Below are positions 3,627-56,201 of a DNA stretch of 64,000 nucleotides, one piece after another. Made by a program: the position numbers and the translations under genes. The DNA comes from Candidatus Brocadia sp. WS118 (lineage in GTDB: Bacteria > Planctomycetota > Brocadiia > Brocadiales > Brocadiaceae), in contig PHFX01000007.1 in NCBI GenBank assembly GCA_007618135.1, forward strand, positions 1 through 64,000, written 5' to 3'. Position 1 is the first letter of the stretch. Each line of letters begins with the position of its first letter. The notes below the pieces were generated by a model. The model worked only from the letters and a program-made list of their open reading frames with translations, did no database searches and had not been told where the DNA came from.

Positions 3627-4484
3627 ATGTCCTACACAACCCTGATATCCGTTTCAGAACTTCTTAGACATATTACCAACCCTGATTGGGCGATTATCGA
3701 CTGCCGTTTTTCATTGGATGATAGAGACCGCGGTCACCGGGATTACCTTCATGCCCACATACCCGGCGCTATTTACGCTCATCTGGGCAAAGATTTATCC
3801 GGCCACATTATTCCCGGCAAGACCGGACGCCATCCGCTGCCAGAACCAAAAACATTTGCCCGGACACTGTCGAATTGGGGAATAGATGATAATGTCCAGG
3901 TGGTAGCCTATGACGACAAAGGGGGCGCAATGGCTGCGGCAAGACTTTGGTGGATGTTACGATGGGTTGGTCAGCATGCCGTTGCCGTCCTGAACGGTGG
4001 GTGGCCATCATGGATGAAACATAATTACCCGGTAACAAGCAACGCCGAAACGAGAGCGCAAAGAAGCTTTCTCCCCCGAATTCAAAATGATTTCGTCTTC
4101 AGTTCTGAAGACGTCGTGAAGATATTGCATAATCAGAATTTCCGCCTAATTGACTCGCGAAGTGCGGATCGCTATCGCGGCGAAAATGAAACGATAGATC
4201 CCGTAGCTGGCCATATTCCCGGTGCATTATCAGTGCCTTTTGCCGGTAACTTAGGCGCGGATGGTCTCTTTCTCTCACAGAAAGACTTAAAGACCCGCTT
4301 TCAGCAGGTACTGGGTGACATACCGCCTGAACGTGCAGTTTTCTATTGTGGCTCCGGGGTCACGGCTGCACATAACCTTCTCGCTTTTACCCACGCAGGT
4401 TTGGGAGATGCCCGATTGTATGCAGGCTCATGGAGCGAATGGATCACGAACCCTGGACATCCCATCATGAAAAGATCGGAATGA
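3627..4484 (+). CDS. sseA: 3-mercaptopyruvate / thiosulfate sulfurtransferase (tandem rhodanese)
   Basis: Transfers sulfur from mercaptopyruvate or thiosulfate to an acceptor through a cysteine persulfide. Two rhodanese domains are visible: an N-terminal inactive one with DCRFSLDDRDRG near residue 24 and HIPGAIYAHL near 45, and a C-terminal catalytic one with DSRSADRYRGE near 175 and active loop CGSGVTA near 240. The CGSGVTA loop is the pattern usual for 3-mercaptopyruvate sulfurtransferases, which favours that substrate, though annotation by loop alone is imperfect. Length (285) is normal. It starts 22 bases after the cupredoxin stop, so they may be co-transcribed. No signal peptide is seen, so it is cytoplasmic. 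Confidence 0.9.
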   Translation: MSYTTLISVSELLRHITNPDWAIIDCRFSLDDRDRGHRDYLHAHIPGAIYAHLGKDLSGHIIPGKTGRHPLPEPKTFARTLSNWGIDDNVQVVAYDDKGGAMAAARLWWMLRWVGQHAVAVLNGGWPSWMKHNYPVTSNAETRAQRSFLPRIQNDFVFSSEDVVKILHNQNFRLIDSRSADRYRGENETIDPVAGHIPGALSVPFAGNLGADGLFLSQKDLKTRFQQVLGDIPPERAVFYCGSGVTAAHNLLAFTHAGLGDARLYAGSWSEWITNPGHPIMKRSE

Positions 4485-4501
4485 GAGCTTCGGAGTCAAC
4501 G

Positions 4502-4618
4502 ATGTCTATGAAATTTGACCAAGCAGCTCTTATTGTTGGAGAGAATATTTTGTTGCATTTTGTCCTTGTTATTGGTAGCATTTTATTTTTTTCCTTCGTT
4601 TATAGGCAAATAACTTAA
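4502..4618 (+). CDS. Possible small single-span membrane peptide
   Basis: A 38-residue frame beginning MSMKFDQAALIVGEN carries one hydrophobic stretch (LLHFVLVIGSILFFSFVY) and ends just before an AGGAGG that serves the next small gene. Starts at 4502 or 4508 are possible; neither has a strong ribosome binding site. I list it because the composition is that of a real one-helix peptide and because it sits tightly between two genes in the same direction. I do not recognise it, and it could be a chance frame. Confidence 0.35.
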   Translation: MSMKFDQAALIVGENILLHFVLVIGSILFFSFVYRQIT

Positions 4619-4636
4619 TATTTTTAGGAGGATGAT

Positions 4637-4729
4637 ATGGCAAATGGGTTCAGCGGAAAGAAGAAGCACAGACTAAACAGAAAAAAATATCTTTTAAAAA
4701 GACGAAGAAGAAAACATGAAAAAGTTTGA
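4637..4729 (+). CDS. Very small, highly basic peptide (30 residues), possible ribosome-associated protein
   Basis: ATG at 4637 follows a perfect TAGGAGG with good spacing. The frame encodes MANGFSGKKKHRLNRKKY and ends KRRRRKHEKV, over half Lys, Arg and His. The KKKHR...RKK..LKRRRRKH pattern is like the tiny bacterial proteins with an AURKAIP1/COX24-type motif (bS22-like, RNA- or ribosome-binding). That link is by eye only. Strong translation signals and strict basic composition make it more likely to be a gene than noise. It is easily missed because of its length. Confidence 0.55.
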   Translation: MANGFSGKKKHRLNRKKYLLKRRRRKHEKV

Positions 4730-4853
4730 GATCAATACCGTTTTTAAACAGGGCAAATGCCTCATTGCATATCCAAATATGGGACGGCAGCACCATATTA
4801 AATAGGCCACTTCTTTTGCAGGTAGCAGAACATTCTTATCATTCATGAGTGAC

Positions 4854-4886
4854 AAAAAAGGGGCATCATGAACATCATGATGCCCC
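4854..4886 (-). terminator. Terminator of rpoD
   Basis: A perfect 12-bp stem (GGGGCATCATGA / TCATGATGCCCC, 4860-4871 with 4875-4886) has a 3-nt loop. Read on the minus strand it is followed by TTTTTT (4854-4859). It lies 22 bases past the rpoD stop, which is a textbook intrinsic terminator position. Confidence 0.9.
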
Positions 4887-4908
4887 TTCGTATAACTTCT
4901 GCGCTTGC

Positions 4909-9507: not shown

Positions 9508-10046
9508 TACTTAACCTCCTCCACCTTGATATTCCTGTTGGTATACACACAAATGTCCGCTGCTATGGTAAGGGCTTCTTCAACGATCTCTTTCGCGGAC
9601 AATGAGGTATGTTTCATCAATGCCCTGGCAGCCGCAATGGCATATGCACCACCGGAGCCTATACCAATAATGCCGTCATCCGGCTCAATCACGTCTCCAC
9701 CACCTGAGATCAAAAAGGAATATTGTTTATCGACAACCACCAGCAGGGATTCCAGTTTCCTGAGCACCTTATCCGTTCGCCATTCCTTGGCCAGTTCATG
9801 CGCACTTCGCAGAACATTTCCCTGATACTGTTCGAGCTTGGCATCAAATCTTTCCATAAGGGCAAAGGCATCCGCAGATGAGCCGGCAAAACCCACAATA
9901 ACCTTGTCGTGATAAAGCCTTCGTATCTTTTTGGCATCCTGCTTTACTACCGCGGCATTCATGGTGACCTGGCCATCACCGCCAATGGCAACGTGCCCAT
10001 CCTTTCGGACGGCTAATATGGTTGTTGATACAATGACTGGCTTCAA
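9507..10046 (-). CDS. hslV: HslV, peptidase subunit of the HslUV protease
   Basis: Threonine peptidase of the proteasome-like HslUV complex. After a short propeptide (MKPVIVS) the mature N-terminus would be [19 protein letters not shown], with the catalytic Thr and a Lys near 33 in QVT...[20 protein letters not shown] and the sodium-site region [16 protein letters not shown] are family marks. Length 179 is normal. First gene of the hslV-hslU pair; it is divergent from the CBS-domain gene, with a palindrome and a strong promoter for the other side in between. Confidence 0.96.
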
Positions 10047-10146
10047 ATATCAATTCCCTTTCAAGCAATGAGTCGGGGGGATTAAGGCGTTGGTTGTTAC
10101 GCAGAATTCACCTTGTATAGCTAAAGGAAAGATACTATCAATTTAT

Positions 10147-10211
10147 TGATAAGTTATCAAGGCTTTTCTTGTTTCTTCCTGTTTGACAAACAGTGAATCG
10201 AGCGTATAATA
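10147..10211 (+). promoter_or_regulatory. Palindromic operator candidate plus sigma-70 promoter for the CBS/hemerythrin pair
   Basis: A near-ideal promoter TTGACA (10184-10189), 16-bp spacer, TATAAT (10206-10211) points right. Thirty bases upstream of it lies a perfect 7-1-7 palindrome, TTGATAAGTTATCAA (10147-10161). The half sites resemble FNR (TTGAT...ATCAA), but the spacing is five, not four. It could serve either the CBS gene or divergent hslV. Confidence 0.65.
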
Positions 10212-10285
10212 ACACCTTGACGTCGTCTGTGAAATCTGCGAATTCAGGTCGTTAAATTAATTTGTTATAGAAGGAGGTATGTGTT

Positions 10286-10684
10286 ATGAAAGCCAAAGAT
10301 ATTATGAACAAGATTGTTACGGCGGCAAAGCAGAACACCATCGGCAGGGACCTGGCGGTTAAATTATTGTCAGGCATGTATAGCGGATTACCGGTTGTCG
10401 ATGACAAGGGAAAGGTGCTTGGAATTGTGAGCGAGTTTGACCTTCTGAAGGCCATTCGAAGCGGCAAGGCCCTGGAACAGGTAACAGCAGGGGATATTAT
10501 GTCAAAAAATCCCATCTGCGTAAGTGAAGATACCTCAGTTGAGCAGATTATAGACCTTATGACAAAGCATAACATTATCCGCGTTCCCGTTCTGAGAAAT
10601 GATACGCTGGTGGGAGTCATCTCCAGATGCGATATCCTGAACAGCATCGTGGAACCCGAATTCGTAACATTCTTTGCTGATTAA
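10286..10684 (+). CDS. Two-CBS-domain protein
   Basis: Small cytoplasmic protein made of a tandem CBS pair (Bateman module), which usually binds adenine nucleotides. Repeats are seen at about 1-60 (MKAKDIMNKIVTAAKQNT ... GLPVVDDKGKVLGIVSEFDLL) and 65-130 (AGDIMSKNPICVSEDTSVEQ ... IRVPVLRNDTLVGVISRCDIL). AGAAGGAGG precedes the ATG. It ends two bases before the next ATG, so the hemerythrin-like lipoprotein gene is almost certainly in the same operon. The partner protein or enzyme it regulates is not evident. Confidence 0.93.
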   Translation: MKAKDIMNKIVTAAKQNTIGRDLAVKLLSGMYSGLPVVDDKGKVLGIVSEFDLLKAIRSGKALEQVTAGDIMSKNPICVSEDTSVEQIIDLMTKHNIIRVPVLRNDTLVGVISRCDILNSIVEPEFVTFFAD

Positions 10685-10686
10685 AC

Positions 10687-11367
10687 ATGAAAAAATTCCT
10701 TGTTCCTCTTGTTGTTATTTCTTGTGTCAGTAATACCGCCTGTAGTGCTCCAAAACACCGGATGTATCCAGAGCATACGCACCTTGAAAACACAAACCTA
10801 TTGGTTACAGACATACTCCATGATGACTTTGATGTAGTAAAAAGGATGTTACACCTCCTGGGAAAAGCCACCTATTGCCTGGAGAATGGAAAACCCGTGT
10901 CGAAGGAAAATTTTCAAGACCTGGTAAAAATCATCTCTGGATTTTCTGATAAACACCATCAGGAGAAGGAAGACAAGGTGCTCTTTCCCGCACTCAAAGT
11001 GAAGAATGATGGTGAAAAGAAGGATTTCTTAGGGCGACTCCTTATGGAACATGTGTCAGCGCGTGATGCAATAAGAAATCTGACCGGAGCGCTCATTCAT
11101 TTCGATCAGGGAAAAAAGGCAAAAAAGAAGATTGCCAAAATCGCTCATTCGTATATCAAAGACATGGAAAAGCATATTGAAATGGAGGAAAAAATCCTCT
11201 TCCCATGGATAGGCAAGGTGTTGACTCCCGATGAACAGGCAATGTTCATGAAAAAATTCGAAACCCTGGAAAAAGAAGACCTCGAAGCCGGCATACATGA
11301 GAAATACAGCTCCATGATCGAACGGCTAGAGCAACAATTGGGACTGTGTTCAGATTTTAAAGAATAA
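10687..11367 (+). CDS. Hemerythrin-like (HHE) lipoprotein
   Basis: Probable envelope-anchored di-iron, O2/NO- or metal-binding four-helix protein. A signal segment MKKFLVPLVVISCVSNTAC ends in a lipobox-like cysteine (residue 19; the N-T-A-C context is loose). Hemerythrin ligands appear as HDDFDVVKRML (about 43), HHQEKEDKVLFP (about 93), EHVSARD (about 118) and HIEMEEKILFPWI (about 160), the H...HxxxE...H...HxxxE order of the HHE family. It is translationally coupled to the CBS gene. The normal HHE domain is cytoplasmic in many proteins, so the export signal is a point of interest. Confidence 0.85.
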   Translation: MKKFLVPLVVISCVSNTACSAPKHRMYPEHTHLENTNLLVTDILHDDFDVVKRMLHLLGKATYCLENGKPVSKENFQDLVKIISGFSDKHHQEKEDKVLFPALKVKNDGEKKDFLGRLLMEHVSARDAIRNLTGALIHFDQGKKAKKKIAKIAHSYIKDMEKHIEMEEKILFPWIGKVLTPDEQAMFMKKFETLEKEDLEAGIHEKYSSMIERLEQQLGLCSDFKE

Positions 11368-11438
11368 TTCCCTGTTCACTTCACGTAGAAATACCATTTT
11401 GTTTATTTCCTCACCTTTCATTACAGGAGGATTTGAAG

Positions 11439-11610
11439 ATGACAAAACATCTTTTGCTCCTTTTCATTACCACTACCGCGCTGATAGCATATTCACCAAC
11501 ATCCCGAACCAAAGGGAGATGCGAAGGTCTGGGATAGTTACAGGTACGGTCTGGTTGCGATGCGTGAAGATACGCGGAACGAGGCGATTTCGTCATTGGT
11601 ATTGTGTTAA
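11439..11610 (+). pseudogene. Frameshifted small exported-peptide gene
   Basis: AGGAGG (11425-11430) precedes an ATG that opens a classic signal peptide (MTKHLLLLFITTTALIA). The same frame stops at 11537 after an unlikely tail. Read one base later, from just after the signal, the frame gives HPEPKGDAKVWDSYRYGLVA and ends at 11610, which looks like genuine protein. I infer a single-base indel near 11490 in a gene for an exported peptide of about 56 residues. A hairpin (CAAGGCAG / CTGCCTTG) follows. The family is unknown, and a sequencing indel is possible. Confidence 0.4.
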
Positions 11611-11819
11611 ATACCAAGGCAGTAAAAGTATTTTCTATCTCTGCCTTGAGATAATTATGATAAATCGTATTGGTATAGTGGATTCTCTATAGTCGTGTCA
11701 TGGCGCCAATCTGCATAACGTATGTTTTCAATCTTATCGAGTATATTCTATAATTAAGTTCTGGTACGAGTTCGCTTAGTTTTTTCATGATGAATAGATA
11801 AAATTATCAAGGAATATCC

Positions 11820-12383
11820 GTGAACAGTTATGCCCTTTTTACTGATGTCAGTTTCAATCCCAAGTTAAAGTTTGGGTTCGGAGCATATCTTCTCCTGCCT
11901 TCTTCATTTCTGGAAATACCACCGGAAAGAATTATTCGCACAGAATTCGTTGGGCTGATTAGACTACGAAGATTTGAGGACACATCATCGACAAGACTTG
12001 AAGTTCAAGACCTTTTATGGGCTCTTGAAGATTTCCAAAAAGAAGGGGCAGGTTCAAAGATTGGAACACTGGAGGTATATTCTGATTCTCTGTGTGTAGC
12101 AGGACTCCGGCGAAGAAGATCTCAATTGAAAACGAATAGTTTTTGTAGTAAGGTAAAGAATCGTCTTTTAAAGAATGCCTCTCTCTATCGTAAGTTTTAC
12201 GAGTTTCATGATGTCCTGGGGTTTGAGGTTGTTAAGGTGACAGGACATGTTCGTTCTTGTTCTCATGATTCGATTCAACGTTTATTTTCATTTGTAGACA
12301 AAGAAGCCAGAAAGGCGTTAAAACTTTACATGAAAAAGGACGATATGCTTGTTACCAGTTTATTATCGGGAAAAAACAGATAA
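11820..12383 (+). CDS. RNase H-fold protein
   Basis: The order of motifs fits an RNase HI-like nuclease: D9 on the first strand (ALFTDVSFNP followed by a glycine-rich turn), E61 on the first helix (STRLEVQDLLWALE), D89 on the fourth strand (LEVYSDSLCVAG), and D160 in FSFVDKEARKAL, with a His-containing loop TGHVRSCSHD just before. All four acidic positions of the family are therefore present. It is not a standard RnhA: spacing and sequence differ and there is a basic loop RRRRSQLK. It has a GTG start after an AAGGA and stands alone. The role is unknown; activity on RNA-DNA hybrids is inference. Confidence 0.6.
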   Translation: MNSYALFTDVSFNPKLKFGFGAYLLLPSSFLEIPPERIIRTEFVGLIRLRRFEDTSSTRLEVQDLLWALEDFQKEGAGSKIGTLEVYSDSLCVAGLRRRRSQLKTNSFCSKVKNRLLKNASLYRKFYEFHDVLGFEVVKVTGHVRSCSHDSIQRLFSFVDKEARKALKLYMKKDDMLVTSLLSGKNR

Positions 12384-29682: not shown

Positions 29683-29740
29683 GGTGGGACAAGCGTCCCC
29701 GCTTGTCATTGTGATGTCAACCGGGGACGGTTGACCTACC
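29683..29740 (+). repeat. Double-hairpin interspersed repeat, copy 2
   Basis: GACAAGCG/CGCTTGTC hairpin followed by GTCAACCG/CGGTTGAC hairpin, bounded by GGTGGG and CCTACC. Nearly identical to copies at 51361 and 56144. Confidence 0.9.
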
Positions 29741-31239: not shown

Positions 31240-33231
31240 TCATTTTCGGTTCGCGATAATTTTTTCTCTCATCTTTGCAGCCAGGTCATGCGCCACGGCC
31301 CCCAAATTTTCCTCACTCCGAAAGGCACGTTCAAGCGTATCGATGAGCGTAGTAGCCGTGTCAACTACCTCTATCCTTATAATGCGCTGATCCTGCCCTT
31401 CCCCCGGATAGACTTCTCCAAAGCAAAGGAACTGAGCGCCTTGTATCTTTCCCAGCTCGACTCTGTACATCTCATCGGCAAGAACAGAGCCACTGAGCCT
31501 TTGCTCCCGTAAAATCTCCTCCTGCAATTCCAAATCCCTTTCTACCACACGCAAATCGTTTTGCGCCAGGAGGGCATCGATGATCCTTTGCCGGAGCATT
31601 TCCATGTTGTGCCGGTTTGATAGTGCACCCATTTTTAAGTTGAATTCCTTAACAGATACAGGCACAGCGTGGGTGACGTCTATGGATACCGGTTTTTTTG
31701 CTGACGGCTTTTTGGCAAGCGCGGGTTTTTCTTTCCCGGGTTGTTTCTGTACCATGGTCTCTAATTCTTTGATAAGCGTATCGATATTTTCCTTTGTTTT
31801 TTGTAAAGATGCTTTCTTATGCACCGCTTCGGTATGTGCTGTTAGAGTACTGCCGGGAGTAATAGCTTCTGCCTCTGCAACATGATGCTTTTCATTATTC
31901 ATCGGTATCTTACTCGTCTCACCACCCGATCCTACGTAATCTGGTGAAGGTCCGCCTGAGCTTGAATATGCCAAAAGAGTGCCGCTGGAAGTGCCGGATT
32001 CATCCCCAAAATAGAATTGCTCAAAGAGTTGGTCGGAATATATCTCTGTTATTTCATCGGGATTAATAAATACGGTATCCGATACATCATGGCCGCCTCT
32101 CATTTTTATCATAACAGGATATGTCCCGCTGGTGAGTTTTATGTCCAATGGGGTTACGCCAACGTCCTTGCCTTTTATATATACCGTTGCCCCCTCGGGT
32201 TTGCTATTAATTTGCAGGCCTCCCGGCTGAGGTGTTGTAATTTTTTGAGCGCTTCCTTTGGTGCCGGTTACTATACCGGGAAATCCCAGGGGAAGATTGT
32301 TGTCAAAGTTTCCTGAGATATCCGGGTGCTGGGCGCTGTGCGTGGCTCTCTTTACGTTTTCTTCTGCAAAATCGAATGCCTCCGCAAGGGTAACGATGCC
32401 GTTTTTATTTCCTCCTGCATCCGCCGGTCCTCTTAAACCTTCGAGCAGGTAGTGAGTAAACACCCCATGACCGCCGCCAAATTGATCGGATTCTACGGAG
32501 ACCTCGCGTGCCCTGCTCGCACTGACAATCCCCCATCCCTCCCGTGTTGATCTGAGCGTGGAAAGCGCTGCATGAATCGTGTTCGCCCCTCCTCTGATAT
32601 TCACGGTGCTTTTTGTAAGGCCGGAGCTGTGACAGGCATCTGCAACGAAGACCAGCCTTTTTGCCGCGATATATCGTTTCATGTCGGCATTGACATTTTC
32701 CATATGATAGGCAGTTGCAGACAGGCTGCCGGGTTCAGAGTCATGCATAAGTAAATAGAGATTGTTGGGCCGGTCTGGTTCAGGTTCGCCATGACATGCC
32801 ATGAAGATAACGACAAAATCAGTCTCCTTTGTCTTTTTAAGAAAGTTTGTGATGGACAGCGTAACGTTTTTCAGGGTTGCCTGCTCGTTCTTTAAGAGTA
32901 AAACATGTTCTTTCTGAAAATCACCGCCGGCCGGGCTGGTAATAAAATCATAAAAGGCCTGGGCATCGGCGTCCGCATATTGCAGATCGGTTATCCGTGG
33001 GTCCTTATAATCTGATATACCGATCACGACAGCATACCGCTGAATATCATTGTCTTCAAAATATTGTTTGGGCGGCAATATACCACGAACAAAAGGACCT
33101 CCGCTCTCTTTTCCATTCTTTGATACGGCCCCTTGAGGAGATGCATCAGTGAAAAAGCTGAATAAAACTACCGGCAATATGAAACACAGATACCGCCTCG
33201 TATGTAAGAGAAATAAGAAAATAGTATTCAT
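31240..33231 (-). CDS. Caspase-like + PEGA + CsgG-like three-domain exported protein
   Basis: After a signal peptide (about 12-28), residues 63-310 form a metacaspase-like C14 domain: RYAVVIGISDY, catalytic H147 in VVIFMACHGEP, catalytic C200 in LVFVADACHSSG. Residues about 330-375 form a PEGA domain (INSKPEGATVYIKGKDVGVTPL), a surface-associated beta fold. A low-complexity Ser/Gly/Lys linker follows. Residues about 525-660 resemble the CsgG domain of the two neighbouring genes, including the shared EEILREQ motif and VVDTATTLID. I know of no standard protein with this order. It is the first gene of a same-strand set of three CsgG-domain genes; palindromes and a hairpin with T-run lie upstream. 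Confidence 0.82.
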   Translation of the reverse strand: MNTIFLFLLHTRRYLCFILPVVLFSFFTDASPQGAVSKNGKESGGPFVRGILPPKQYFEDNDIQRYAVVIGISDYKDPRITDLQYADADAQAFYDFITSPAGGDFQKEHVLLLKNEQATLKNVTLSITNFLKKTKETDFVVIFMACHGEPEPDRPNNLYLLMHDSEPGSLSATAYHMENVNADMKRYIAAKRLVFVADACHSSGLTKSTVNIRGGANTIHAALSTLRSTREGWGIVSASRAREVSVESDQFGGGHGVFTHYLLEGLRGPADAGGNKNGIVTLAEAFDFAEENVKRATHSAQHPDISGNFDNNLPLGFPGIVTGTKGSAQKITTPQPGGLQINSKPEGATVYIKGKDVGVTPLDIKLTSGTYPVMIKMRGGHDVSDTVFINPDEITEIYSDQLFEQFYFGDESGTSSGTLLAYSSSGGPSPDYVGSGGETSKIPMNNEKHHVAEAEAITPGSTLTAHTEAVHKKASLQKTKENIDTLIKELETMVQKQPGKEKPALAKKPSAKKPVSIDVTHAVPVSVKEFNLKMGALSNRHNMEMLRQRIIDALLAQNDLRVVERDLELQEEILREQRLSGSVLADEMYRVELGKIQGAQFLCFGEVYPGEGQDQRIIRIEVVDTATTLIDTLERAFRSEENLGAVAHDLAAKMREKIIANRK

Positions 33232-33256: not shown

Positions 33257-33299
33257 AGCCTTACTGCAAAGATTTCCCAACATCTTCGGCAGTAAGGCT
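33257..33299 (-). promoter_or_regulatory. Leader hairpin with T-run before the caspase-CsgG gene (attenuator candidate)
   Basis: AGCCTTACTGC pairs with GCAGTAAGGCT over 11 bp, with an inner AAGAT/ATCTT stem. On the minus strand it is followed by TTTTATTTTT and then AAAGGATG before the start codon. Position within the leader suggests termination/antitermination, though it could end a transcript from further upstream. Confidence 0.5.
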
Positions 33300-33315
33300 A
33301 TCTTCAACTAAACTG

Positions 33316-33337
33316 TTAAACCGTTTAAACGGTTTAA
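33316..33337. promoter_or_regulatory. Perfect 22-base palindrome, operator candidate
   Basis: TTAAACCGTTT followed directly by AAACGGTTTAA, 85 bases upstream of the caspase-CsgG start. A GTTTAAAC core is repeated at its edge. The AAACCGTTT-type half site recalls LacI-family operators, but no such regulator is seen nearby. Confidence 0.5.
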
Positions 33338-33584
33338 ACCGCTTATAAAGATCCTTTACTTTGCGCCCCCTGATCACTCAGGGTTTACCTTTATCGTGAT
33401 GTACTCATATATTACATGTGAGTTTTCTTGTTAAAAGATGAGCAATACAAATGCCAGAAACAGGAAAACGAAGGATGTTAACAATATATTTGCCATAAAC
33501 AATTTTATGATTTATGATTATAATTATTTAAGGAAAGATACGAACAGGATGGGATTAGTAAATTCAATATAGAAAAAGTGTATC

Positions 33585-51360: not shown

Positions 51361-51417
51361 GGTAGGACAAGCGTCCCCGCTTGTCAATATGATGTCAACC
51401 GGGACGGTTGACCTACC
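51361..51417 (+). repeat. Double-hairpin interspersed repeat, copy 3
   Basis: GGTAGGACAAGCGTCCCCGC then TTGTC, short spacer, GTCAACCGGGACGGTTGAC, CTACC. It lies between regulator and kinase genes, so the two may be separately transcribed or the repeat may sit in the message. Confidence 0.9.
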
Positions 51418-52885: not shown

Positions 52886-52914
52886 TTGACAACACACTGA
52901 TTTTTCGTTAAAAT
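52886..52914 (+). promoter_or_regulatory. Promoter of the SAM riboswitch operon
   Basis: TTGACA (52886-52891), 17-bp spacer, TAAAAT (52909-52914). Transcription would start about 10 bases before the riboswitch P1 stem, an ideal position. Confidence 0.8.
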
Positions 52915-52932
52915 TTTTTCAAACTTGTTTGT

Positions 52933-53053
52933 CTTATCGAGAGTGGCAGAGGGACTGGCCCTGCGAAGCCACAGCAACCGGTCTTGTCCAGTTAACTGAA
53001 TGGGCGAGATGCTGGTGCTAATTCCTGTCTCGTGTTTTTTGGGAAAAGATAAG
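52933..53053 (+). ncRNA. SAM-I (S-box) riboswitch
   Basis: The core motifs of the S-box aptamer are present in order: CTTATC-GAGAGTGGCAGAGGGA, CTGGCCCTGCGAAGCC, CAGCAACCGG, and GGTGCTAATTCC before the closing P1 strand GATAAG (53048-53053), which pairs with CTTATC (52933-52938). It senses S-adenosylmethionine and turns off methionine-related genes. The downstream gene is annotated as threonine-synthase-like, which makes the presence of an S-box informative about its pathway. Confidence 0.95.
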
Positions 53054-53063
53054 ATAGGTGCAT

Positions 53064-53106
53064 AAAAAAGCCTCTTCCTATCTTATATATAGAAAGAGGC
53101 TTTTTT
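53064..53106 (+). terminator. Regulatory terminator of the SAM riboswitch
   Basis: AAAAAAGCCTCTT (53064-53076) pairs with AAGAGGCTTTTTT (53094-53106) over 13 bp. The loop contains CCTATCTTAT (53077-53086), which can instead pair with ATAAGATAGG (53049-53058), the strand that overlaps P1. So without SAM an antiterminator forms, with SAM P1 forms and transcription stops. Confidence 0.93.
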
Positions 53107-53254
53107 ATTTGGTTCTTCAATAAACTTGTGCAGAAAAGCAGTAGCCGCAACCTTCGTGTTTCGCTATTGCCCGCATGCTTTATAAGACGGAGAATACCGT
53201 CACAGGAAGGCAGGAAGAACCTTTCATTTGATACCAGAAAGATGGAGGCAATAG

Positions 53255-54505
53255 ATGGGATTTGTAAAAGGTCTGAAATGCCGGGAGTGTGGAACGCCAT
53301 ATCCAAAGGAGCCACTGCATGTCTGCAGCTTTTGTTTTGGCCCACTGGAAGTCGATTATGATTACGAGGGGATTAAGAAGGTTTTGACCAGAAAACTGAT
53401 CGAATCCCGAGGCAAAACCATGTGGCGTTACCAGGAGTTGCTGCCGGTTGACGGCGAACCTACGGTGGGCGCACAGGTTGGTTTTACCCCGCTTGTCAAG
53501 GCAAACAACCTTGCCAGAGTCCTTGGAGTTAAGGAACTATACGTGAAGAATGATTCGGTAAATTATCCAACGTTTTCTTTTAAGGACCGGGTTGTCTCCA
53601 CTGCCCTGACAAAGGCAAAGGAATTTGGGTATAAAACGGTTGGATGCGCCACAACAGGAAACCTGGGGAACGCGGTAGCCGCCCAGGCTGTGCAGGCATG
53701 CCTGGAAAGCTACATCATCATGCCAGCCGATCTTGAACAGGGCAAGATTGTTGGTACGTTGATCTACGGCACCAACGTAATTAAAATCCGGGGAAACTAT
53801 GATAATGTAAACAAGCTGTGCTCAGAGATTGCGGACAAATACGGATGGGCAATTGTAAATGTGAATCTGAGACCTTACTACGGAGAAGGCTCCAAGACCT
53901 ATGGATATGAGATTCTGGAACAGTTGGGATGGAAGGCACCAAAGCATATTGTCGTTCCTATGGCTGGTGGTTCCTTGATTACGAAGATAGAAAAGGCCAT
54001 TAAAGAATTCGTAAAACTGGGGCTTATTGATCGTGCGGACACCAAACTCCACGGCGCCCAGGCAAGCGGCAGTGCGCCAATAACTACGGCTGTCAAGCAG
54101 GAAACCGACGTGATAAAACCCGTGAAACCCAAGACTATCGCCCAGTCAATCGCCATCGGCAATCCGGCTGACGGGTATTATTCCGTGAAGTCTATTAACG
54201 TATCCGGTGGATGGGCGGAGGATGTAACTGATGATGAACTTGTGGAGGGCATTAAATTGCTTGCCCGAACTGAGGGTATCTTTACAGAAACTGCAGGCGG
54301 TGTGACGGTTGCGGTTACAAAAAAACTCATTGAACAGGGCAAAATCCCTCGTGACGAATCCATTGTCATCAGTGTAACAGGGAATGGACTAAAGACCCAG
54401 GAGGCAGTTCTGGACAAATTGGAAGTTCCGAGGATTATTAACCCTTCCCTCTCTGAATTTGACGCCATTATGGATGAAAAGATGGCTGTGGCACAGAAAA
54501 GGTAA
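53255..54505 (+). CDS. Threonine-synthase-like PLP enzyme under SAM control
   Basis: Fold-type II PLP enzyme, closest to threonine synthase. A zinc ribbon opens it (C9, C12, C24, C27: CRECGTPY...CSFCFGP). PLP lysine K110 is in NYPTFSFKDR, phosphate-binding loop in CATTGNLGNAVAAQA, and the C-terminal TGNGLKTQEAV is threonine-synthase-like. GGAGG precedes the ATG. Two contextual clues argue against plain threonine synthesis: a SAM-I riboswitch controls it, and the next gene is a ThiS/MoaD sulfur carrier. I infer an enzyme that puts carrier-bound sulfur on an activated homoserine, giving homocysteine. Ordinary threonine synthase remains possible. Confidence 0.9.
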   Translation: MGFVKGLKCRECGTPYPKEPLHVCSFCFGPLEVDYDYEGIKKVLTRKLIESRGKTMWRYQELLPVDGEPTVGAQVGFTPLVKANNLARVLGVKELYVKNDSVNYPTFSFKDRVVSTALTKAKEFGYKTVGCATTGNLGNAVAAQAVQACLESYIIMPADLEQGKIVGTLIYGTNVIKIRGNYDNVNKLCSEIADKYGWAIVNVNLRPYYGEGSKTYGYEILEQLGWKAPKHIVVPMAGGSLITKIEKAIKEFVKLGLIDRADTKLHGAQASGSAPITTAVKQETDVIKPVKPKTIAQSIAIGNPADGYYSVKSINVSGGWAEDVTDDELVEGIKLLARTEGIFTETAGGVTVAVTKKLIEQGKIPRDESIVISVTGNGLKTQEAVLDKLEVPRIINPSLSEFDAIMDEKMAVAQKR

Positions 54506-54575
54506 TGAATTTCTTGGCGAGGCAATGCCTTAGACCGGTAAAAAATCAACCTAAACATTATAAAGGAGTATGAAC

Positions 54576-54857
54576 ATGGCAGTAACGGTACGCATTCCAA
54601 CCCCACTGAGAAGCCTTACCAAAGGCGCCGATGAGGTAAAGGTGGAAGGAAAGAATATTAAGGATATTGTCGAAAGTCTTGAAGCAAATTATAAAGGAAT
54701 TAAAGAGAGGATTTGTGACAACGACGGACAGATTAGAAGGTTTATTAATTTTTACCTGAATGATGAAGATATAAGGTTTATGGGTAACCTCAATACTCCG
54801 GTCAAAGACGGCGATCATATCTCTATCGTGCCTGCCATTGCCGGCGGGCACTCGTAG
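54576..54857 (+). CDS. ThiS/MoaD-family sulfur-carrier protein with GGHS tail
   Basis: Beta-grasp ubiquitin-like protein of 93 residues. It begins MAVTVRIPTPLRSLTKGADE, has the FYLNDEDIRFMGNLNTPVKDGD strand-turn near 70 (quoted in part) and ends IVPAIAGGHS. The GG is the thiocarboxylate-forming end, but two residues, His-Ser, follow it, so a protease (JAMM/Mec-type) would have to trim them before adenylation by a MoeB-like E1. ATG 54576 is chosen: AAGGAG is 7 bases upstream, whereas ATG 54570 would be too close. It is 70 bases after the PLP enzyme gene with no terminator between, one operon under SAM control. Confidence 0.92.
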   Translation: MAVTVRIPTPLRSLTKGADEVKVEGKNIKDIVESLEANYKGIKERICDNDGQIRRFINFYLNDEDIRFMGNLNTPVKDGDHISIVPAIAGGHS

Positions 54858-54894: not shown

Positions 54895-54951
54895 GGTGGG
54901 TCAACCGTCCCGGTTGACATCATAATGACAAGCGGGGACGCTTGTCCTACC
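54895..54951 (-). repeat. Double-hairpin interspersed repeat, copy 4 (inverted)
   Basis: GGTGGGTCAACCGTCCCGGT...TGAC then GACAAGCG/CGCTTGTC and CCTACC; this copy is in the opposite orientation to the others. It lies between the sulfur-carrier gene and the convergent antiporter. Confidence 0.9.
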
Positions 54952-54996: not shown

Positions 54997-56127
54997 TTAT
55001 AAAAAATAAGCGGTAATGGCAATGATGAGATAAAAGGACAGCAGTGAAAATCCCTCCCACCAGTTACTCTTGTTGTCGTGGACAACGAGCCAGGTGCCGC
55101 CGATAGACATGGCAAGGGTAATCAACTCGATCTTGTTAAAAATCAGGTTGAAATTTTGTCCAAAAAGGCCGGCAATAAGGACACAAATGGGTGAAACGAA
55201 GAGGGCAATCTGTACGCTGCTTTCTGAGGCAATGGCCAGGCTCAGATTGATCTTGTTTTTCATGGCAGAACCAATGGCAACAGAATGTTCGGCTACGTTA
55301 CCGACCAGCGGCAGGATGATCAAACCAACAAACGACGGTGGAATATGGGTGGATTCCACCAGGGGCTCTATCTGGTGCACTAATATCTCCGACATATAGA
55401 CGAGTCCGCCCGTTGCAGATATCAGGACTACCAGACTTTTAGCCAAACTCCACTTGGGCGCCGTGGCTTCGATATCCTCGTGAATAACCTGAGATACCTC
55501 TTTGTTTTCACGGTTTACCATGCTATAAAAGACCCCAACAAAGTAGACCATGAGTAAGACTACGGCAATACCGATACTATACTTGTTGAGAGCCAATACC
55601 GAGTCCTCTTTTGCAAAGATAGAAGGCACGACAAAACACATGGCAGCCATCGAGAGATGGATGGTTGTCGTCCCGGTAATAATAGGGCTCAGCTTCAAAT
55701 TACCAAATTTTATGCCGCCGCAAAAAAGACTTAACCCCAGGATGAGAAGGATATTCCCAATAATTGAGCCTATCAGGGAATATTTTACAATATCGATTAG
55801 GCCGCTTTTAATGGCCAGGATTGCAATCACCAGTTCTGCAGCATTGCCAAAAGTGGCATTGATAATGCCGGAAAGGTGTTCGCCGGTCTTATCGGAAAGT
55901 ACCTCAGTCGCCTCACCCAGGAAGTGAGCCAGCGGAATCAGAGCGACTCCGGCTAAAATGAAGGTAATAACCACCGGGAAGTGACACCAATAAGCAATGA
56001 TGGTGACCGGTATCAGCAGCAAGAGATAATGCCAAAAGCCAGGTTTCGGGAACAATGGTAATATCCTTTCGGAAAGACGATACCGGAAGCCAATTGCAAT
56101 GAATTGCGTAACGCTGCTATGCCGCAA
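54997..56127 (-). CDS. Ca2+/H+ antiporter, CaCA (CAX) family
   Basis: Inner-membrane calcium (or other cation)/proton exchanger with about 11 hydrophobic segments. Both alpha-repeats are present: GEATEVLSDKTGEHLSGIIN...FGNAAELVIAI (about 68-105) and FVGLIILPLVGNVAEHSVAIGSA (about 265-290, quoted in part). The paired GNAAE/GNVAEH acidic signatures are the ion-binding helices. Length 376 is normal. The N-terminal 20 residues before the first helix are basic. A double-hairpin repeat copy flanks each end of the gene. Confidence 0.93.
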   Translation of the reverse strand: MRHSSVTQFIAIGFRYRLSERILPLFPKPGFWHYLLLLIPVTIIAYWCHFPVVITFILAGVALIPLAHFLGEATEVLSDKTGEHLSGIINATFGNAAELVIAILAIKSGLIDIVKYSLIGSIIGNILLILGLSLFCGGIKFGNLKLSPIITGTTTIHLSMAAMCFVVPSIFAKEDSVLALNKYSIGIAVVLLMVYFVGVFYSMVNRENKEVSQVIHEDIEATAPKWSLAKSLVVLISATGGLVYMSEILVHQIEPLVESTHIPPSFVGLIILPLVGNVAEHSVAIGSAMKNKINLSLAIASESSVQIALFVSPICVLIAGLFGQNFNLIFNKIELITLAMSIGGTWLVVHDNKSNWWEGFSLLSFYLIIAITAYFL

Positions 56128-56143
56128 CCAAATCCCCCCTATC

Positions 56144-56201
56144 GGTAGGACAAGCGTCCCCGCTTGTCATTATGATGTCAACCGGGGACGGTTGACCTAC
56201 C
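56144..56201 (+). repeat. Double-hairpin interspersed repeat, copy 5
   Basis: GGTAGGACAAGCGTCCCCGC, TTGTCATTATGAT, GTCAACCGGGGACGGTTGAC, CTACC. The most regular copy, identical over long stretches to copies 2 and 3. Confidence 0.9.

Follow-up and report, generated by a model that had tools for sequence, protein, structure and literature searches.

Why should a SAM-I (S-box) riboswitch stand before a gene that reads as threonine synthase, and why should that gene be followed by one for a small sulfur carrier protein? The question is raised by a stretch of 64,000 nucleotides of Candidatus Brocadia sp. WS118 (contig PHFX01000007.1, positions 1 to 64,000), here called the window, which belongs to a genome of 5.04 Mb in 299 contigs at 96% completeness that we label G000, its contig being C3 (G, L, C and f numbers are our labels for genomes, loci, contigs and families respectively). 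The answer that we favour, at a probability of roughly 0.68, is that the operon makes homocysteine from O-phosphohomoserine in a carrier-dependent reaction carried out by a ThrC-type enzyme. The features concerned are as follows.

52886 to 52914, plus strand: sigma-70-like promoter, TTGACA-17-TAAAAT, 11 of 12 matches in a consensus scan
52931 to 53055, plus strand: SAM-I (S-box) aptamer, RF00162, 85.4 bits, E 8.8e-19
53049 to 53086, plus strand: antiterminator, in which 53049-53058 (the 3' strand of P1) pairs with 53077-53086; fold of 53044-53088, -11.2 kcal/mol
53062 to 53108, plus strand: intrinsic-terminator-like hairpin with a U-run, -20.6 kcal/mol, z -3.44
53255 to 54505, plus strand: ThrC-like enzyme using pyridoxal phosphate (PLP), fold type II, 416 amino acids; TIGR00260, Pfam PALP, AlphaFold model
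54570 to 54857, plus strand: CysO-like beta-grasp (ThiS/MoaD) carrier, 95 amino acids, ending PAIAGG-HS; Pfam ThiS, TIGR01687

The original prediction for this DNA had named a promoter, an S-box aptamer with its antiterminator and terminator, a ThrC-like enzyme and a carrier ending in GGHS, and all of these were confirmed by scans, folding and the Rfam, TIGR and Pfam models. The aptamer is complete (model positions 1-108 of 108, with its 85.4 bits set against a gathering score of 44.4), and a chance or mis-annotated riboswitch was ruled out by the RF00162 score and by conservation across relatives. Promoter-like sites in the region numbered 5 by consensus scan, compared to 3.1 expected. The hairpin at 53062-53108 was absent from the output of a simple terminator scan, probably because its U-run is paired within the stem. 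The window S-box was the single RF00162 match found in G000 (129 first-look candidates scored), and each of the 11 f1 and f2 genomes tested (f1 being the window's family and f2 its sister family) gave exactly one match, before the ThrC-like gene, with 129 of the 193-323 first-look candidates per genome being scored; G198 has a second S-box elsewhere in its genome. The riboswitch would stop transcription when S-adenosylmethionine (AdoMet) is plentiful, and the homocysteine step would then be feedback-controlled.

The enzyme scored 289.5 bits against the TIGR00260 thrC equivalog (cut-off 167.1); its PLP lysine is K110 and it has an N-terminal zinc ribbon, whose cysteines C9, C12 and C24 are invariant in 12 relatives. 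Its AlphaFold model (mean predicted local distance difference test score 94.6) found its best PDB match in Arabidopsis threonine synthase, 2c2b (Z 50.3), and the fold comparison gave no information beyond the ThrC fold. The canonical ThrC loops STGNT, PVGNAGN, NPASW and FCEPASA are replaced in the window enzyme by TTGNLGN, PMAGGSL, NPADG and FTETAGG, with a leucine (L137) where the STGNT loop has threonine.

For the carrier, the nearest solved chain is 3dwg_C (E 2.4e-24), presumably the CysO of M. tuberculosis. Translation is likely to start at 54576, the second ATG, because several relatives begin there. The residues AGG are invariant in 15 aligned carriers, and in the window carrier the GG precedes a HS tail. 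Genome-wide, the window carrier is the one good CysO-like carrier in G000, the next match being partial (E 0.01).

Threonine synthase removes phosphate to leave a beta,gamma-unsaturated intermediate, and a nucleophile reaching C-gamma of this intermediate would give a gamma-replacement, the product here being homocysteine. From the genes present, their surroundings, the sequence of the riboswitch and the fold predicted for the enzyme we infer a substrate, a sulfur source and a product, linked by the following chemical steps. A JAMM protease would trim the carrier to its Gly-Gly end where a tail is present, after which a MoeB/ThiF-type E1 would adenylate it and sulfur would be loaded as a thiocarboxylate. 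Like threonine synthase, the ThrC-like enzyme would act on O-phosphohomoserine by eliminating phosphate, and the carrier sulfur would attack at C-gamma, in place of water at C-beta. Carrier-bound homocysteine would be formed first, and JAMM cleavage would then free the homocysteine.

Are the remaining partners present in the genome? The original prediction had noted that the window lacks a JAMM protease and an E1, and indeed none of the JAB or ThiF matches listed for G000 lies on C3; it had proposed that both be sought elsewhere in the genome, along with a second, S-box-free thrC and with metB, metY or metZ. The genome does encode a Prok-JAB (JAMM) protease with the motif HSHP-x6-SxxD, at C234:90265-90711; its gene is grouped with others for sulfite reductase and for DsrE-like and CysM-like proteins, and with one that, read from its sequence, resembles siroheme synthase. 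The same contig carries two MoeB/ThiF-type E1s, one PRK12475-like (3878-4903) and one MoeB-like (75686-76501) which adjoins a gene read as rhodanese-like, and there is a third, weaker PF00899 match on C223. G000 thus holds a carrier with a GG end, an E1 and a JAMM, the predicted components of a thiocarboxylate system, and its one CysO-like carrier probably serves both the ThrC-like enzyme and the CysM beside the JAMM. The second thrC was found on C221 and encodes a canonical, plant-like ThrC; the 1.5 kb flanks of this gene contain neither an S-box nor a carrier. Profile searches of G000 found no full-length PF01053 enzyme (MetB/MetC/MetY/MetZ-type), only weak partial matches, and MetX was not found either; PF01837 (DUF39, HcyBio) gave 0 matches and the DUF39 route was rejected for this genome on that account. 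A sole thrC accompanied by a canonical methionine pathway, which the original prediction had given as the outcome contrary to it, is not what G000 contains.

Relatives were compared in two sets. Of 246 genomes of the same phylum, 153 gave a match at E 1e-20, and 41 of these 153 have an orthologue at 51% identity or above, the next identity step down being 37%. The 41 consist of a carrier group of 25 genomes (with a carrier or an S-box), a group B of 15 (with no carrier nearby) and G131, whose locus L072 ends at a contig edge and which was excluded from the counts of both groups; since carrier and S-box define the carrier group, its carrier and S-box counts describe the group and are no test of it. 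For the wider set, contigs were scanned with 12 proteins of the carrier group; at least 588 relatives came up, of which the best-scoring 80 were retained, so that carrier frequency in this set is skewed to near relatives. The 80 loci span 14 named phyla and 8 unassigned records, 76 of them having at least 400 bases downstream and 42 having 4 kb on both sides, and the nearest to the window are L219 and L220 (Planctomycetota records, 94 and 92% identity).

In the carrier group the carrier lies within the fetched DNA at 23 of 25 loci; in G239 it is several kb off, in G088 it is ~18 kb from the ThrC-like gene, and in G195 it was not found by a search confined to the locus. An S-box is likewise present at 23 of 25 loci, 21 of them by Rfam, with G138 added by an RF00162 genome scan and G141 by our own model only. 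MetK- and AhcY-like genes, so named from their sequences, stand upstream in several same-phylum loci. Among the best-scoring loci with at least 400 bases downstream, 71 of 76 have a carrier within 2 kb downstream, and such a carrier occurs in 12 of the 14 named phyla; two Armatimonadota and two Poribacteria loci have none within that distance. Our own model found an S-box at 39 of the 80 loci, in 9 named phyla and 5 unassigned records, and all 13 of those re-tested exceed Rfam's own threshold. By comparison, 15 canonical ThrC control loci (1.5 kb flanks) yielded no carrier, NIL, E1, JAB or S-box (0/15). The operon recurs in Nitrospirota, Nitrospinota, Verrucomicrobiota, Omnitrophota and others.

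The JAMM and E1 that are missing from the window are found in the same cluster as the ThrC-like gene in relatives. In G114 the order is ThrC-like gene, carrier-NIL fusion, E1 and JAB, and the 42 loci with 4 kb on both sides include 40 with a carrier, 30 with NIL, 20 with an E1, 11 with a JAB and 20 with an S-box. L236 (Nitrospira) reads S-box, CysK, ThrC-like gene, NIL, CysM, JAB, carrier, Usp and ATP sulfurylase; L222 reads S-box, ThrC-like gene, carrier-NIL, a CysK-like partial open reading frame (ORF), CysM, JAB and E1. Two clusters end with a radical SAM gene, L222 at 11042-12271 (NF045502, PF04055) and L221 at 9527-10750 (PF04055). In L051 (5138-) and L052, upstream of the ThrC-like gene, one open frame comprises a carrier, an E1 and a part read as rhodanese, and lies beside JAB and CysM.

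The presence of CysK and CysM genes in the same clusters could be taken to mean that the enzyme makes some other sulfur compound, whether cysteine or, by joining cysteine to O-phosphohomoserine, cystathionine. We consider this very improbable, as cystathionine needs a beta-lyase, which in known pathways is of the PF01053 kind of which no full-length member was found in G000, and it is difficult to see why a cysteine synthase should be placed under a SAM riboswitch when a CysM is already there beside it.

Does the sulfur come from the carrier? Several carriers run on after the GG into a NIL domain (PF09383), so that the GG is internal in these fusions and cleavage would be needed. A JAB neighbour was found for 13 of 38 carriers with residues after the GG compared to 1 of 29 without (Fisher p 0.002, with no correction for kinship), after the omission of three carriers truncated at a contig edge and of two in which the GG was not placed. 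Carrier-NIL fusions were seen at L046, L047, L048, L049, L050, L221, L222, L223, L240, L262 and L265, with Pfam NIL confirmed for two of them (L046 and L048), and they resemble a ubiquitin precursor with a cleavable tail. It is conceivable that the ThrC-like enzyme makes homocysteine with free sulfide or persulfide while the carrier serves only CysM or some other thiolation, and some members of the clade do indeed have no carrier in the DNA scanned (5 of 76 best-scoring loci and all 15 group-B loci). Moreover, the clusters of sulfite reductase, CysM and JAB in f1 and f2 have no carrier of their own in any of the five genomes fetched, and as G000 has one CysO-like carrier, this would have to supply CysM as well, should CysM need a carrier. 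Against free sulfide, carrier, NIL and E1 genes accompany the ThrC-like gene, and the E1 gene sits between the S-box and the ThrC-like gene in L247, L257 and L287 (as a NIL gene does in L231). Furthermore, G198 and G220 each have two carriers: one stands with CysM-JAB-E1 and shares a single reading frame with the E1 and a rhodanese-like part, and a separate one stands with the ThrC-like gene. We therefore regard the use of free sulfide as unlikely and, for f1 and f2, the carrier-less CysM clusters suggest that one carrier is common to both uses, leaving carrier-dependent homocysteine synthesis as the favoured reading.

Has the enzyme left threonine synthesis at all? The protein could be an ordinary threonine synthase whose expression is tied to AdoMet since O-phosphohomoserine is common to the threonine and methionine branches; its equivalog score lies above the cut-off and its closest fold is a threonine synthase. 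In favour of homocysteine, when 17 carrier-group genomes were searched for a second, plant-like ThrC, 14 proved to have one (partial in G182), so that another ThrC is usually present where the enzyme has an S-box and carrier, and shut-off at high AdoMet suits a methionine step better than a threonine one. In addition, 13 of 25 carrier-group genomes, including the single-contig G217 and G088, have no PF01053 match below 1e-50, compared to none of the 15 in group B. DUF39 was found in 1 of the 41 genomes and is absent from 12 of these 13, which would leave their homocysteine source unexplained if the enzyme made threonine. MetX was found in 2 of the 41 genomes (G185 and G111), and PF00899 (E1) in all 20 operon genomes searched.

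Several observations weigh on the other side. In 13 of 15 group-B genomes no ThrC other than the clade protein was found, and no E. coli-type ThrC (PF14821) was found as a hidden second synthase in any of the 41 genomes at E 0.001; the ThrC-like enzyme standing alone is thus probably a threonine synthase, and threonine synthesis may persist in the clade. Searches of G206 and G220 returned no second ThrC, and the match in G001 is weak. The altered loops are alike in carrier-bearing members and in the carrier-less members of group B, so they are compatible with a changed reaction and not diagnostic of it, and as a column comparison of 46 carrier-bearing rows with carrier-less members gave no catalytic-looking split (the fold alignment held 41 sequences), no specificity residue is claimed. 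Full-length PF01053 enzymes occur in 12 of the 25 genomes of the carrier group, four of which belong to f1, the family of the window. In G000, 10 weak partial PF01053 matches exceed the Pfam cut-off (best E 1.2e-8) and were taken for other fold-type-I enzymes. G185 and G111 have MetX and a PF01053 enzyme, and they are the two operon genomes out of 20 in which no Prok-JAB was detected. The G114 and G001 loci show no S-box in RF00162 and own-model scans, nor do 41 of the 80 best-scoring loci in the DNA scanned. The most serious of these points are the group-B threonine synthases, the PF01053 enzymes in 12 of 25 genomes, and G185 and G111. The three group-B genomes of f66 (L067, L068, L071) also have an S-box ~2.4 kb upstream of the ThrC-like gene with no carrier near, as ordinary threonine synthase under AdoMet control would allow; in L067 the gene behind the S-box (219-1535) is a homoserine dehydrogenase. 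Taking both sides together, we think it decidedly unlikely that the window enzyme is an ordinary threonine synthase, and homocysteine synthesis remains our preferred explanation.

How old is the association with the carrier? A tree made by a quick method without bootstrap, with 15 of 25 carrier-group, 11 of 15 group-B and 36 of 80 best-scoring loci and five canonical ThrC, dispersed the carrier-bearing members throughout the clade. The f24 members of group B are nested next to L262 and L265, two loci that possess carrier-NIL, E1 and JAB, with a support of 93, so that the link with the carrier probably goes far back in the ThrC-like clade. Members of f66 and the Armatimonadota fell near the unresolved base.

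How does the system compare with those already described? HcyS-HcyD with MetY is a protein-thiocarboxylate route to homocysteine in Wolinella succinogenes, and CysO-CysM-Mec is a carrier-dependent route to cysteine in M. tuberculosis. The present system shares with the former a beta-grasp carrier, an E1, a JAMM and the proposed product, but its acceptor enzyme is ThrC-like (PALP, fold type II) in place of MetY (PF01053, fold type I), and it differs further in its SAM-I riboswitch control and in the NIL domain fused or adjacent in relatives; with no full-length PF01053 in G000, the window's genome does not hold HcyS-HcyD-MetY proper. With the latter it shares a carrier nearest to the CysO chain 3dwg_C, a fold-type-II PLP enzyme, a JAMM and, in some relatives, CysM and JAB in the same clusters, but a ThrC-like enzyme stands in for CysM, regulation is of the methionine type and the presumed substrate has four carbons. 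It is like ThrC (TIGR00260; PDB 2c2b, 6cgq, 1uim) in its fold, its PLP-lysine motif SFKD and its plant-type N-terminal extension, and unlike it in its altered loops, its S-box, its carrier operon and the second ThrC in the genome.

NIL is also tied to homocysteine synthesis in the DUF39, NIL/ferredoxin and COG2122 route of Desulfovibrio and methanogens, as described in PMC5764234, but no DUF39 was found in 40 of 41 genomes here. That paper (Price 2018) names traditional, DUF39 and protein-thiocarboxylate homocysteine routes and says that another remains to be found. Operons for sulfur assimilation with ThiS/MoaD, E1 and JAB were described by Iyer et al. 2006 (PMC1779556), and these resemble the present ones in having a carrier, E1 and JAB with cysteine synthase, sulfite reductase, ATP sulfurylase and O-acetylhomoserine sulfhydrylase; the terms 'threonine synthase', 'homocysteine', 'methionine' and 'NIL' have 0 occurrences in the portion of its text that was available, and the available portion of the GapMind paper (PMC7311316) shows no such step. 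No paper describing this combination was found in the open-licence literature, subscription journals lying mostly outside it, and the system is real, widespread and, as far as searched, undescribed. On balance, we lean towards a separate homocysteine route, beyond transsulfuration, MetY/MetZ, HcyS/HcyD-MetY and DUF39. It would consist of a ThrC-derived, fold-type-II O-phosphohomoserine homocysteine synthase and a ubiquitin-like thiocarboxylate carrier, the pair occurring in at least 12 named phyla and enzyme relatives in hundreds of genomes, with SAM-I control in many, a carrier that cysteine synthesis either shares or has supplied by duplication, and NIL as a cleavable cap or adaptor. If true, this would account for how methionine is made in several Planctomycetota genomes that gave no match to the homocysteine-forming enzymes looked for, and would mean that threonine synthase has been re-used for gamma-replacement with protein-bound sulfur; the annotation 'threonine synthase' (TIGR00260 equivalog) may then mislead metabolic models.

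Two further features of the window were observed. A c-di-GMP-I-GGC riboswitch aptamer (RF03167, 63 bits) lies at 33284-33398 on the minus strand, upstream of an ORF of 663 amino acids (31240-33231, minus strand) which looks caspase-like by eye. The palindrome GACAAGCGGGGACGCTTGTC is present in four exact copies, at 29688-29707, 51366-51385, 54927-54946 and 56149-56168 (mean 0 in shuffles), two of which flank a calcium/proton exchanger gene at 54997-56127, and it is apparently an intergenic repeat family.

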